DNA of 64,000 nucleotides from Parvivirga hydrogeniphila (GTDB taxonomy: Bacteria > Actinomycetota > Coriobacteriia > Anaerosomatales > Anaerosomataceae): contig NZ_JAMCCO010000002.1 in the NCBI RefSeq assembly GCF_023371205.1, positions 187,501 to 251,500 of the forward strand, read 5' to 3'. The position numbers were made by a program, and so were the translations under genes. Under the pieces are notes generated by a model. It had not been told where the DNA came from. It searched no databases and worked only from the letters and a program-made list of their open reading frames with translations. Every line of letters starts with the position of its first letter. The first letter of the stretch is position 1. This document shows positions 20,369 to 25,762 of this stretch, piece after piece.

Positions 20369-22801
20369 TCAGGCCCGCAACGTCGCACCGACCTTCGCGC
20401 AGACGCGCTCCACCAGCCGGTCGTGCACCGCCCTGACCTCGTCCTCCGAAAGCGTACGGTCGGCGGCGCGATACTCCAGCGAGAACGTCAGGCTCTTCGT
20501 GCCCTCAGGAAGCCGACGCTGCTGCGCTCCGTGCGGGTCCTCGTAGACGTCGAAGAGGCGCACGTCCGCCAGAAGCGGCTTGCCGAACGAGCGGATGGCC
20601 GACGCCACCGTCTCAGCGGCGACCTCGCGCGGCACGACGAGCGCGACGTCGAGCTTCACCGCCGGGAACCGCGGGATCTCCTCGTAGCGCGCCACGGACC
20701 CGCCGGCGCGCACGAGCGCACGGACGTCGACCTCGAAGGCCGCGACGGCGCCATCGACCTCGAAGGTCTTGAGGACGTGCGGCGCCACCTCGCCCAGCCA
20801 CCCGATGACCTCGCCGCGCACCACGACGTCGGCGGAACGGCCCGGCTGCAGCCAGGCGTGCTCGGCAGCGTCCAGACGCCAGCGCTCGATCCGCAGGCTC
20901 TCGAACAGCGCCTCGAGGACGCCCTTCGCGTCGAAGAAGTCGAGCGGCCGGGGACGCTCGTACCACTGCTGGCGGTCCCACGAGCCGGAAAGGACGGCGC
21001 CGAGGACCGTGCGCTCCTTCGGCAGCTTGCGGCCTGAAGACGTGCGGAAGACCCTGCCGACCTCGTATAGGTGGACGTCGCTCACGCCGCGACGCTGATT
21101 CCGTGAGACCGCCTCGAGCAGCCCCGTGAGCGTGCTGACGCGAAGGTGCGACTGCTCGTTCGACATCGGGTTGAGAAGCTCCACGAGCGCTTCGTCGGGA
21201 CCGAGCTCGAAACCGCACGCCTCGACCCGCCGCGGGTCTTCGAACGCTAGCCCGATGTGCTCGTTGAGCCCGGCGGCGCGCATGGTGGCGCCGATCCGAC
21301 GCTCGATGCGCTGGGACGCGTCAAGACCGCCCACGCGCTGCCGCCCGCCCGGCAGCGTGGACGGCACGCGCTCCATGCCCCAGATGCGGACGACCTCCTC
21401 GTACAGGTCGACCTCGCGCTCGAGGTCGGGGCGGAACGTCGGCACCGTGCACGCGAGGTCCTCGCCGGTGGCCTCGGACGCGATGCCGAGCCGTCGCAGG
21501 ATCGCCGCGGCCTCGTCACGCGCGATGGCGGTGCCGAGGAAGGCGTTCATGCGCCCGCACCGCAGCGTGATGCTGCGGTGCGTCACCGGGCTCGGGTACA
21601 CGTCGATAAGGCCGGGGGCAACCTCGCCGCCGCCGAGCTCGGCGATGAGCGCCGCCGCCCGTTCCGAGGCACGCGCCGCCAACTCCGGATCGACACCTCG
21701 CTCGAAGCGTAGGGACGACTCCGAGAGCAGCCCGAGCGTCCGGCTGGTCTTCGAGACGCTCGCGCGGTCGAACGACGCGGCCTCGAGCAGCACGTCCACA
21801 GTGCGCTCCGAGACCTCGGTCGCCTCCCCGCCCATCACCCCGGCGAGCGCGACAGGGCCGTTCGCGTCGGCGATGACGAGCATGTCGGGAGAGAGCACCC
21901 GGTCCTGGCCGTCGAGCGTCCGCAGCCGCTCTCCGTCGTTCGCGCGACGGACGATCACCTTCGCGACGCCACCGGGCGCGGCGATCGTCGCAAGGTCGAA
22001 TGCGTGGAGCGGCTGGCCGAGCTCGAACAGGACGTAGTTCGTGACGTCCACGACGTTGTTGATGGGCCTCGCACCTGCCGCGACGATGCGTTCGGCCAGC
22101 CAGTCCGGCGACGGCCCGATGCGCACACCGCGGATCAGGCGAGCGGTGTAGCGCGGGCAGAGGTCGGGGTCTTCGACCACCACGGAGACGCGCTTCTCGA
22201 CGGGCTCGCCGCTCGTCCGCAAATCCCACTGGGGGAAGCGAACGTCGCGGTTGAGAACGGCGCCGACCTCGCGCGCGACACCGGCCATCGACAGGCAGTC
22301 GGGCCGGTTCGGAGTGACCTCGAGCTCGAGCACCGTGTCGGCGAGGCCAGCGTACTCCGCGTAGCTCGCGCCGACTGGCGCGTCCTTCGGGAGGATGAGC
22401 AGGCCCGACGCGTCGCTTCCGGCGCCGAGCTCGCGAGCGGAACACATCATGCCTTCCGACTCCAGGCCGCGGAGCTTCGCGCGCTTGATGGTGACGCCGC
22501 CCGGCAGCGTCGCGCCGACGAGGGCCACTGGCACTTTGTCGCCTTCGGAGAAGTTGGTCGCGCCGCACACGATGCGCAGCGGCTCTTGTGCCCCCACGTC
22601 GACCTGGCAGTACGAGAGCTTGTCAGCGTTCGGGTGCTGCTCCTTCACGAGCACCTGGCCGACGACGACACCGTCGAGCGCCTGCCCGGTCTTGATCACG
22701 CGCTCGACCTTCGTGCCGGTCATGTCGAGCCGGTCGACGAGCTGCTCCACTGGCATATCGACGTCCACGAGCTCTTTCAGCCACTTCAACGACACGCGCA
22801 T
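20369..22801 (-). CDS. pheT: Phenylalanyl-tRNA synthetase beta subunit
   Basis: Large subunit of the heterotetrameric class II enzyme. It has 810 residues, full length: a tRNA-binding EMAP-like domain (about 40-150, with HPNADKLSYCQVDVG), B3/B4 editing domains (VTPNRPDCLS near 165; RPINNVVDVTNYV near 248), B5, the catalytic-like core and a C-terminal anticodon-recognition domain. It starts 29 bases after the pheS stop and shares its T-box-controlled transcript. The arginine promoter lies directly downstream. Confidence 0.98.
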   Translation of the reverse strand: MRVSLKWLKELVDVDMPVEQLVDRLDMTGTKVERVIKTGQALDGVVVGQVLVKEQHPNADKLSYCQVDVGAQEPLRIVCGATNFSEGDKVPVALVGATLPGGVTIKRAKLRGLESEGMMCSARELGAGSDASGLLILPKDAPVGASYAEYAGLADTVLELEVTPNRPDCLSMAGVAREVGAVLNRDVRFPQWDLRTSGEPVEKRVSVVVEDPDLCPRYTARLIRGVRIGPSPDWLAERIVAAGARPINNVVDVTNYVLFELGQPLHAFDLATIAAPGGVAKVIVRRANDGERLRTLDGQDRVLSPDMLVIADANGPVALAGVMGGEATEVSERTVDVLLEAASFDRASVSKTSRTLGLLSESSLRFERGVDPELAARASERAAALIAELGGGEVAPGLIDVYPSPVTHRSITLRCGRMNAFLGTAIARDEAAAILRRLGIASEATGEDLACTVPTFRPDLEREVDLYEEVVRIWGMERVPSTLPGGRQRVGGLDASQRIERRIGATMRAAGLNEHIGLAFEDPRRVEACGFELGPDEALVELLNPMSNEQSHLRVSTLTGLLEAVSRNQRRGVSDVHLYEVGRVFRTSSGRKLPKERTVLGAVLSGSWDRQQWYERPRPLDFFDAKGVLEALFESLRIERWRLDAAEHAWLQPGRSADVVVRGEVIGWLGEVAPHVLKTFEVDGAVAAFEVDVRALVRAGGSVARYEEIPRFPAVKLDVALVVPREVAAETVASAIRSFGKPLLADVRLFDVYEDPHGAQQRRLPEGTKSLTFSLEYRAADRTLSEDEVRAVHDRLVERVCAKVGATLRA

Positions 22802-23892: not shown

Positions 23893-23929
23893 GTGCGCTC
23901 CTTCTCTTCGGTCGGACGTCCGATCCTGC

Positions 23930-24232
23930 AATAGAAGAGCCGCTCCGCCTCAGGAAACCCCAAGGACGGGAGCGGCTCCCGCGGTACCACCCTGGTTGGC
24001 GCTCGATGCGCCCGCTCTGTGCGCGACGTCGCGCTGCTGGCCTCGCGCCAGCCGCCCCGTATCGGGGGGACCCGGCTCGCCTACTGGGGCCCTTCTCGCC
24101 CGTTCAGCTCGCTGCTGGTGGAGTGAACCGCGCTCGCGTGCTCGCAGGACCCTCTCAGTCGGCGAGGTCCCTCCCTGGTCGAGCTCCCGTGCGAACGCGC
24201 CTCTCCGTCATCGCGTTGCAGTCTTCGATTGG
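23930..24232 (-). ncRNA. T-box leader (tRNA-Phe sensing) of pheST
   Basis: The conserved T-box element GGTGGTACCGCGG lies at 23979-23991 on the minus strand. A long terminator hairpin follows: GAGCCGCTCC at 23969-23978 pairs with GGAGCGGCTC at 23937-23946, then TTCTATT. The T-box bases sit just before the 5' arm, so antiterminator and terminator are mutually exclusive in the classical way. A UUC triplet at 24125-24127 (minus strand), followed by A, is the candidate phenylalanine specifier; full stem I pairing was not worked out. Uncharged tRNA-Phe should permit readthrough into pheS and pheT. The 5' end of the leader overlaps the last codons of the signal peptidase gene. Confidence 0.9.
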
Positions 24233-24648
24233 CGGTTGAGTATAGCACACCGGTCGATGCGCTCATGTGCGTACTGGCTGACGCGACCTATCGGCACGAC
24301 CGCGCACACCACGCCTCGCACCTGCGACCGCGGAACGGGATCGCGGTCAGGCGCGGGATTCGCGTCGCCTTGCGTCCTCAGCAGCCCGCCAGGCAGCACT
24401 GCACGCACGCGGTGGATGACGCCTCCGGGCCATCCGTCGTGTTCGAAGAGCACGGCATCACCGACGCGAATCGAGACTGGGCCTCGCCGGTACACCGCCA
24501 CGTCGTACGGCACGAGCGCCGGCTCCATCGACGATCCGCGAACGACGGTCGCGCCGTACCGCGTCAGCACGAGCGCCCACACAACAAGCGCGACGGCTCC
24601 GAGCGCTCGCCGCACGAACACCGCACTTGCACGCTCGCCCGATCCCAT
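24208..24648 (-). CDS. SipW-like signal peptidase I
   Basis: Membrane serine protease that removes signal peptides, 146 residues. It has one N-terminal membrane segment (about 13-30), the catalytic serine in VRGSSMEPALVPYD (about 36-49) and GGVIHRVRAVLPGG (about 75-88). There a histidine replaces the lysine of typical bacterial enzymes, as in the SipW/ER-type group. The ATG overlaps the stop of the upstream exported-protein gene (TGATG), so they are translationally coupled. In Bacillus, SipW processes TasA-family proteins; the same pairing is inferred here. The pheS promoter and T-box begin inside its last codons. Confidence 0.88.
   Translation of the reverse strand: MGSGERASAVFVRRALGAVALVVWALVLTRYGATVVRGSSMEPALVPYDVAVYRRGPVSIRVGDAVLFEHDGWPGGVIHRVRAVLPGGLLRTQGDANPAPDRDPVPRSQVRGVVCAVVPIGRVSQYAHERIDRCAILNRQSKTATR
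24239..24247 (-). promoter_or_regulatory. Extended -10 promoter for the pheST T-box transcript
   Basis: TGCTATACT on the minus strand is an extended -10 (TG-N-TATACT). It lies within the coding region of the signal peptidase, 30 bases before its stop. No good -35 is visible. The predicted start near 24232 fits the T-box length. Confidence 0.6.
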
Positions 24649-25136
24649 CAGTGGACCTGCTCCGCGTCGAAGTACAGCGTGAGCTTCACGTAGTCACCGG
24701 CCAGGTCGTTGCCAGCAGAAGCCGGAAGCCCCACCGCGAACGTCATCCGCGCACGCGCCCCGGGAGCGATCTCGAACGGCACCGTCCTCAGCTCGGCGAG
24801 CGGCCCGCTGTAGACCGGGACGCCATCGGCCGTCACCTCGCACGTGAGCGCGTTGTAGAAGTCCGTGATGCCGGCCTTCTTCGCTCCGGTGACGACGACG
24901 GTGCTCGGAAGCGACCCCGTGTTCGCCACCGTCACGACGCGTTCACACGACCCGCCCGGCGCAAGCGCGTCGATGGAAAGCGCGGCAGACGTCGGTTCGG
25001 CGGACACCGCTACCGCACCTGCCCGGATCACATTCTCCGGCACCTCTGCCCGGCCCGTGAAGAAGGCGCCCGCGCCTCCCAGGCACGCGAACCCTAACGC
25101 GACCGCACACGCTGCAACCACGATCCTCCGCTTCAT
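24648..25136 (-). CDS. CalY/TasA-like exported protein with SipW-type signal
   Basis: A 162-residue secreted protein. The N-terminus is MKRR followed by a hydrophobic run ending GGAGAFFTG, then VIRAGAVAV. This matches the SipW-dependent signal pattern (hydrophobic core, aromatic pair, Thr/Asn-type region, then AG-V). The mature part looks like a beta-rich domain with WxAG-like conserved spacing and CERVVTVANTGS, similar to the camelysin/TasA group of biofilm fibre proteins. ATG 25136 follows GGAAGGGGAGG. It is coupled to the signal peptidase downstream. Role as a cell-surface fibre or spore-coat component is inferred only from family and context. Confidence 0.72.
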   Translation of the reverse strand: MKRRIVVAACAVALGFACLGGAGAFFTGRAEVPENVIRAGAVAVSAEPTSAALSIDALAPGGSCERVVTVANTGSLPSTVVVTGAKKAGITDFYNALTCEVTADGVPVYSGPLAELRTVPFEIAPGARARMTFAVGLPASAGNDLAGDYVKLTLYFDAEQVH

Positions 25137-25239
25137 CGTCCTCCCCTTCCTGTCGTGCCGCCCGAGGGGAAGACGGCGCCTGTCCTGTGGCCGCGCCTGC
25201 GGCCGGGCTCAGTGTCGCACCCGGCGCTTACCGAAGCCT

Positions 25240-25296
25240 TTCCGGGCCCTGAACCGCGTGCGCGTCCCGCACCTCACCTTCCGGGCCCTGAACCGC
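25240..25296. repeat. Two copies of an 18-base direct repeat
   Basis: TTCCGGGCCCTGAACCGC occurs at 25240-25257 and 25279-25296, 39 bases apart, with similarity extending a few bases into both flanks (CCTT before, GTGCG/CTGCG after). It lies in the 266-base gap between the exported-protein gene and rplT. No function is recognised. Confidence 0.8.
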
Positions 25297-25337
25297 CTGC
25301 GAGGCCCCGCAGGCCACGCGAGCGAACGGCAACGCAA

Positions 25338-25362
25338 AGGGCCCTGCGCGATGCAGGGCCCT
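25338..25362 (-). terminator. Terminator of the infC-rpmI-rplT operon
   Basis: A perfect 10-bp stem AGGGCCCTGC (25338-25347) with its complement (25353-25362) and a 5-base loop, followed on the minus strand by TTTGCGTT. It stands about 40 bases beyond the rplT stop. Confidence 0.85.
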
Positions 25363-25402
25363 CTCTCAGCGCTCCGTACGTGCGCGGCCACAGGATCGGC
25401 CG

Positions 25403-25762
25403 CTACGCGCTCAGCTTCTCCTTCGCGAGCTCCACCAGCTTCGCAAAGGCAGCCGGATCGTTGATCGCCAGGTCGGAGAGCACCTTGCGGTCGAGGTCGA
25501 TCTCGGCGCGCTTCAGCCCGTTGATGAACGCCGAGTACGAAAGCCCGTTCTGGCGCGCCCCGGCGTTGATGCGGGCGATCCACAGCCTGCGGATCTCGCG
25601 CTTCTTGTTCCTGCGGTCTCGGTACTGGTACTGCAGCGAGTGCTGGACCTGCTCCTTGGCCGCCCGATACGACCGGCTCTTGGCACCGTAGTAGCCCTTC
25701 GCACGCTCGAGCACCGTGCGGCGCTTCTTCTTGGCCGTGACTCCACGCTTCACTCTAGGCAT
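25403..25762 (-). CDS. rplT: 50S ribosomal protein L20
   Basis: Early-assembly 23S rRNA-binding protein, 119 residues, with the family start [15 protein letters not shown] and the conserved [11 protein letters not shown] (about 24-34). L20 is also a known repressor of its own operon in several bacteria. Last gene of infC-rpmI-rplT; a strong terminator follows. Confidence 0.99.

Follow-up and report, generated by a model that had tools for sequence, protein, structure and literature searches.

A candidate minimal filament system: an order-wide pair of a TasA-like exported protein and a SipW-like signal peptidase behind a putative leader RNA

The closest described counterpart of the gene pair reported here is the tapA-sipW-tasA system of Bacillus subtilis, for which a TasA fibre structure is available (8aur). 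According to the available part of PMC9674648, the N-terminal strand of TasA (residues 28-38) completes the following subunit, and C-terminal residues of the protein become ordered in the fibre. A proline box made up of F29, P62, Q232 and F200 is the most conserved part of TasA/camelysin alignments (PMC10151520, available part). SipW cleaves TasA, which carries Phe at P2', and LepB is inefficient on substrates with an aromatic residue at that position, its chief obstacle being a Trp at P2 (PMC10269814, available part).

Parvivirga hydrogeniphila is an iron-reducing, deep-branching actinobacterium with a genome assembly of 1,840,996 bases in 9 contigs. In a 64,000-nucleotide stretch of this genome (hereafter the window) we find an exported protein that shares with TasA a beta-sandwich, a Phe at P2', the Phe, Pro and Gln of the proline box and a genetic link to a SipW-type peptidase. 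The system differs from that of B. subtilis in several respects. The exported protein has 162 residues against the 264 positions of the TasA model, and its chain stops past the last strand, whereas TasA continues into the C-terminal residues that order in the fibre. No TapA/CapP-like nucleator was found here, and the pair has a fixed, order-wide locus beside translation genes and an RNA leader of its own. The features of the locus, in window coordinates, are as follows.

25338 to 25362, minus strand: G+C-rich hairpin past rplT, a possible rplT terminator that would set the pair apart from the ribosomal operon (from sequence and the folds of four genus members)
25157 to 25177, minus strand: leader hairpin GCCGUCU-UCCCCUC-GGGCGGC with an anti-Shine-Dalgarno-like heptaloop (from stem covariation)
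25140 to 25146, minus strand: GGGGAGG, the Shine-Dalgarno sequence of the exported gene and a complement of the hairpin loop (from sequence)
24648 to 25136, minus strand: exported TasA/camelysin-like protein, 162 aa (stop codon included)
25065 to 25136, minus strand: signal peptide, residues 1-24, with A-x-A at its end (A22 and A24 invariant)
25017 to 25064, minus strand: mature N-terminus, residues 25-40, a candidate donor strand with F26, V32 and I37 (from model and alignment)
24208 to 24648, minus strand: ER/archaeal-type (SipW-like) signal peptidase, 146 aa (TIGR02228, SEC11C, invariant Ser-His-Asp-Asp)
24239 to 24244, minus strand: TATACT, probable pheST -10 element within the 3'-terminal part of the peptidase gene (from motif comparison)
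23962 to 24020, minus strand: 3' part of the pheST T-box leader, the downstream boundary of the pair (RF00230)

The first-pass annotation had described two coupled reading frames joined by a TGATG overlap, and both are present as described, with one nucleotide common to the stop and start codons; a chance pair of open reading frames is excluded. Across 40 loci with start codons chosen by script, the spacing between the two genes was -1 in 20, -4 in 6, -20 in 9, -26 in 2 and 0, +1 or +11 in 3. The 1-nt overlap is thus not universal, being found in just half of these loci.

The exported protein matches PF12389 with 31.3 bits (cut-off 22.5, E 2.3e-7), and all 44 aligned members of its family match the same model at E≤0.01. 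It scores 25.1 bits against the TasA equivalog NF046066, below the cut-off of 450, and is therefore not a TasA orthologue. When the family profile was compared with the PDB, the best matches were TasA structures, 5of1 (E 5.6e-4) followed by 8aur (5.9e-4). AlphaFold, supplied with the 44-row alignment, produced five models with mean pLDDT from 90.6 to 71.1; the best one (pLDDT 90.6, pTM 0.73) was taken and shows a beta-sandwich whose chain terminates directly past the last strand. Of the 64 genomes, 58 encode a protein of 160-162 aa.

The first-pass annotation had likened the protein to TasA/camelysin and proposed a structure prediction as a check. The sequence profile and the predicted fold both uphold this relationship, with the TasA fibre 8aur ranked first in both structure searches. 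In Foldseek it was found with E 1.9e-5, and 7ueg, a Pyrobaculum bundling pilus, was the one other structure below E 0.001. In VIA-align it reached Z 9.3 (rmsd 2.7, 123 residues aligned, 20% identity); unrelated beta-sandwiches came close (Z 9.1 for 7som_D over 92 residues, in effect a tie, and Z 8.5 for 6fvi), and the VIA-align score by itself therefore does not single out TasA. We base the TasA fold assignment on Foldseek, on the sequence match and on the alignment to 8aur being the longest among the eight VIA-align rows with Z >8.

Subunits of other filaments and tubes also appear among the fold matches, namely the archaeal bundling pilus 7ueg and, likewise ranking high, the Sulfolobus filament 7pnb (Foldseek) and the cannula protein CanA 7uii (VIA-align). 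In contrast to TasA, none of 7ueg, AbpX, 7pnb and CanA has a significant sequence match in the family profile. AbpX was considered as a relative and set aside, its profile match being weak (E 0.54). BsaA-type and other SipW-dependent proteins were also compared: 20 of the 44 family members match TIGR04090 (BsaA-type) and 19 match TIGR04088 (SipW-type signal peptide) at E≤0.01, whereas the window protein itself has no match to either model at E≤1.

The cleavage position is an inferred one. In all 63 readable rows, A22 and A24 are retained, P1' is Tyr or Phe and P2' is Phe; P2 is G, R, S or T across the exported family, which lacks Trp there. Fourteen columns are invariant overall, and these include F26 (63 of 63 rows), P60 (64 of 64) and Q160 (64 of 64). 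P60 corresponds to TasA P62 through an ungapped profile alignment in which profile positions 29-81 pair with residues 31-83 of the exported protein, Q160 to Q232 through the aligned end points 162 and 234 in VIA-align, and F26 to F29 through its distance to the cleavage site. Three of the four proline-box positions thus match; the fourth, F200, appears from the alignment to have an aliphatic counterpart, L137 (L in 56, I in 6, M in 1 and V in 1 of 64). Residues 25-40 lack secondary structure in the monomer AlphaFold model.

We regard the pair as probably a minimal two-gene filament system of the donor-strand-exchange type, a reading held with moderate confidence. The exported protein would leave through Sec with an A-x-A motif followed by a Tyr/Phe-Phe site, which would suit an ER-type peptidase and is probably ill-suited to LepB. 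Cleavage by the adjoining SipW-like peptidase would free the N-terminal strand (about residues 25-40), which could then enter the open beta-sandwich of the following subunit, the arrangement known from TasA fibres, with Phe26, Pro60 and Gln160 locking the subunit junction. A homopolymer would result, a surface or matrix filament that may make up part of the pili-like appendages described for these bacteria. As far as an alignment can indicate, the invariant interface residues support polymerisation; conservation for folding alone could explain them too.

The exported gene is an order-wide core gene at a single locus, and the pair is not an accessory island. In a search of 246 genomes across the class, the protein turned up in 66 of the order's 69 genomes and in 9 of 177 others, with best E values of 3.1e-60 or better in the order and 5.9e-14 outside it. 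The three genomes of the order in which it was missed are 77, 74 and 85% complete; two of them yielded no rplT, and in the third the contig stops just past rplT. Among the nearest 61 genomes, 60 carry the exported protein and 60 have TIGR02228 matches, a count that includes two genomes (G028 and G043) whose matches lie elsewhere and are not of the ER type. Genome G011 contains both the exported gene and the peptidase gene. A search of the phylum gave a match of any kind in 35 of 396 genomes, 3 of them from the host's own genus. Neither TasA nor SipW is tied to this order in the titles or opening lines of the abstracts of papers listed in searches of the open literature, outside which most subscription papers and preprints lie.

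The locus comparison covers 64 of the order's 66 genomes with the exported gene. The peptidase gene adjoins the exported gene in 62 of the 64, and the stretch read also includes pheS in 62 and rplT in 55. Wherever they are present, rplT, the exported gene, the peptidase gene and pheS lie on the same strand and in that order (64 of 64 loci). The gap between rplT and the exported gene has a median of 211 nt; it reaches 3009 nt, and rplT lies off the stretch read in 9 loci, so other genes can intervene after rplT. A genome of another order (locus L146) has rplT directly before pheS, from which we conclude that rplT and pheS were probably neighbours before the pair came between them. Correlations between distance matrices (exported protein and pheS, r 0.54; peptidase and pheS, r 0.54; rplT and pheS, r 0.52) fit vertical descent and decide nothing.

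The host genome contains one PF12389 match (E≤0.001), and the family profile detects no second member there at E≤10. This bears out the earlier description of a compact two-gene system, and the search for further SipW-type substrates in the host, which had been proposed alongside it, came back empty with the same two models at the same thresholds.

Two distributional observations stand apart from the core pair. In another lineage of the phylum, loci L091, L095 and L099 (family f41) encode a 173-174-aa relative with a C-terminal FDAEQW or FNAEQW, which adjoins a HAD-type phosphatase gene and, at two of the loci (L091 and L095), a SipW-like peptidase gene as well; this family accounts for 10 genomes among the phylum-search matches and may be a second lineage with a fixed pair. 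Among relatives of the host, genomes G029, G013, G023 and G031 have an extra, separate SipW-like locus besides the core pair (L034-L037), which in L035-L037 stands beside other exported proteins with SipW-type-looking signals.

Surface structures have been reported for this family of bacteria. The available part of PMC9686372 describes pili-like appendages across the whole surface in both isolates, P. hydrogeniphila Es71-Z0120T and Anaerosoma tenue M08DHBT, and makes such appendages part of the description of the Anaerosomataceae. Es71-Z0120T formed them on ferrihydrite alone, Fe(III)-citrate cultures lacking them; in late stationary phase a dense extracellular matrix was seen (PMC9686372). 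The strain is described as non-spore-forming (PMC9686372), on which ground we rejected a spore coat; of the fibre or coat function suggested at first, the coat thus falls away, and the fibre part is kept as a conditional reading of the fold and interface residues.

Our tentative proposal, a real possibility on which we would not insist, is that the ferrihydrite-induced appendages are the TasA-like filament. A filament of folded protein cannot be as thin as 0.8-0.9 nm. That is the published filament width (PMC9686372, available part), so width cannot separate the candidates.

The appendages may instead be type IV pili, with the TasA-like protein acting as a surface or matrix protein, for example a monomeric wall-associated stabiliser or a binding protein. 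PF00437 ATPases occur in all 61 genomes searched, with 8 matches in the host, and because the host has a PilB-PilT-PilC cluster (L160, contig C2:80000-95000; names assigned from Pfam domains), we regard type IV pili as a strong rival source of these structures. The literature leaves room for this explanation: the available part of PMC9686372 names neither the filament protein nor a gene for the Anaerosomataceae appendages, and the terms 'pilin' and 'type IV' have 0 occurrences in its main text. Type IV pili, however, are silent on the invariant TasA interface residues and on an ER-type peptidase kept in 62 of 64 loci, and pili and a TasA-like filament can coexist. We judge this explanation possible, though on balance unlikely. 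The PilB, PilT and PilC homologues of the host cluster with a gene for a small Ras/Arf-like GTPase.

The second gene of the pair encodes the peptidase. The first-pass annotation had called it a Ser/His peptidase of the ER type (SipW-like), and this identification holds. Against TIGR02228 the protein reaches 55.7 bits (cut-off 51.85, E 5e-15), the best solved relatives of its profile are SEC11C (4e-15) and SEC11A (4.4e-15), and S40, H79, D95 and D101, which we take to be the catalytic residues of an ER-type peptidase, are invariant in 40 of 40 aligned peptidases. It thereby resembles SipW, archaeal and ER signal peptidases in general, and differs from Bacillus SipW itself: its score against the SipW equivalog NF046067 is 18.1 bits, below the cut-off of 190, and it has a short C-terminal tail whose gene segment runs over probable pheST promoter DNA. 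Conservation of that tail is not to be taken as protein function, because the tail is encoded by promoter- or leader-like DNA.

It is conceivable that the SipW-like peptidase is not the processing enzyme, and that LepB cleaves the exported protein or an uncleaved signal anchors it in the membrane. The two genomes G028 and G043, from one family (f3), have the exported gene with no SipW-like gene in the locus, and their exported protein has an unchanged cleavage site (Y-F). Nine peptidase-profile matches lie elsewhere in these genomes; the eight that were read are, by eye, six LepB-like and two LexA-like proteins, all eight with Lys where the ER type carries His, and none appears to be of the ER type. 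The host has one LepB-model match next to its one TIGR02228 match, and the exported family lacks the P2 Trp blamed for the LepB block (PMC10269814, available part). Against this stand the peptidase gene kept beside its candidate substrate in 62 of 64 loci, the invariance of the Ser-His-Asp-Asp set and the link between Phe at P2' and inefficient LepB cleavage (PMC10269814). Moreover, with completeness at 90% for G028 and 79% for G043, an ER-type copy far from the locus may have escaped detection. We consider it improbable that LepB or membrane anchoring takes the place of SipW-like processing. G028 and G043 offer candidate natural peptidase-loss genomes in which to ask what SipW is needed for.

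That the exported protein is a secreted camelysin-type metallopeptidase, as the name of PF12389 ('camelysin metallo-endopeptidase', Peptidase_M73) would have it, we rejected as very improbable, since the alignment of 64 genomes has no conserved metal-binding His, the single His (H162) lies in a variable column (H in 32 of 64) and leaves no zinc-binding His cluster, and the closest fold is a filament subunit.

Expression of the candidate filament gene appears to involve its leader. The leader set comprises 63 of the 64 genomes (G036 is out, its contig beginning inside the gene), and a conserved core precedes the start codon of the exported gene in 61 of the 63, G045 and G058 not being anchorable. 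Starts were set by hand in G034, G037 and G043, and the G037 window is one base short at its end. In windows anchored at the loop, the core takes the form of a 6-bp stem and a heptaloop that reads UCCCCUC in 33, ACCCCUC in 9 and CCCCCUC in 8 of 61 genomes. The stem was tested on ungapped windows with this anchoring, which was chosen after the motif was seen, and 78.4% of cells pair in 58 distinct windows (61 genomes, duplicates removed). Redealing the 3' letters 2000 times gave 58.8% (sd 1.8, max 65.8), and slid partners gave 65.5% at most; the redealt-letter control breaks the relatedness of the genomes and the slid-partner control keeps it. At least 5 of the 6 stem pairs form in 43 of 61 genomes. 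In an arm-swap test on 54 distinct genomes (duplicates removed), stem length averaged 4.11 against 3.52 after swapping, and 0 of 2000 swaps reached as high.

RNAalifold found no base pair in a MAFFT alignment of 46 leaders. The automatic consensus fold is empty because the aligner shifts the stem register, and the leader model R1 is sequence-only as a consequence of the RNAalifold result; a MAFFT alignment of short leader windows was likewise out of register and was set aside. With R1, no other match in the host genome comes near the leader itself (E 5.5e-8), the next among those listed having E 0.05. At least 4 matches with E <0.01 lie off the known leader in other genomes (G029:C259, G039:C2, G038:C29 and G018:C99), and in G039 the C2 match slightly outscores the leader. 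Neither G029:C259 nor G039:C2 is followed by a same-strand open reading frame of at least 60 aa resembling the exported gene, and we have taken these two as chance.

Between positions 22800 and 27000 of the window, a search of Rfam at E≤0.5 gave the T-box only and no match to the leader hairpin, the leaders of relatives lying outside its scope. The hairpin thus appears to be a conserved RNA element that is new here and has no Rfam family at the window locus. Its loop can pair with the Shine-Dalgarno sequence, by which translation of the exported gene is probably gated; we infer the direction of this control. A helix between loop and Shine-Dalgarno sequence averaged 5.45 with its own partner against 5.21 with swapped partners, and 10 of 1000 swaps were as high (60 genomes), a weak signal. 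The minimum-energy fold of the window leader pairs the loop region with the Shine-Dalgarno sequence, with a z of -1.09 that is not significant.

Two sets of repeats were noted in the same region. A 29-nt direct repeat (25240-25268 and 25279-25307, 90% identical, 39 nt from start to start) lies in the leader of the exported gene, and a search allowing 3 mismatches places its 18-nt core at no other position of the window. A 19-nt inverted repeat (25178-25196 and 25382-25400, 89% complementary) covers most of the intergenic region between rplT and the exported gene.

Taken at its fullest, the filament reading would have the order turn a TasA-type filament into a core structure with one subunit, one peptidase and one locus under RNA gating, and the Parvivirga appendage would be a ferrihydrite contact filament linking cell and mineral. 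This extended version as a whole is rather unlikely to be right in every part. If the pair does build such filaments, donor-strand-exchange fibres, otherwise an accessory biofilm trait, would become a core feature of an order of iron- and sulfur-reducing actinobacteria, and a conserved RNA regulator would be added to fibre production. The pair is a single-locus, order-wide candidate for the appendages, and the strain is cultured and sequenced; switching its iron source allows imaging of cells that bear filaments and of cells that lack them.

The pair looks like a transcription unit of its own, since the strong hairpin past rplT lies on one side of it and the TATACT element and the T-box on the other. 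The T-box call rests on RF00230 (E 9.7e-4, 29 bits, under the gathering score of 93), and 57 of the order's 62 examined loci carry the T-box antiterminator motif GGTGGTACCGCG. A scan for consensus promoters and terminators across 23900-25450 returned nothing, so the promoter and terminator calls are by motif and comparison only. Of the 62 loci examined, 40 bear a GACGGAGAG-type leader motif, and a loose -10-like pattern lies upstream of it in 39 of these 40, a count that has no chance control. The 24208 end of the pair falls within the pheST promoter/leader region. On the minus strand at 24200-24249, the 3' coding end of the peptidase gene holds TGTGCTATACT, which resembles a promoter, as well as GATGACGGAGAGG, the start of the pheST leader.
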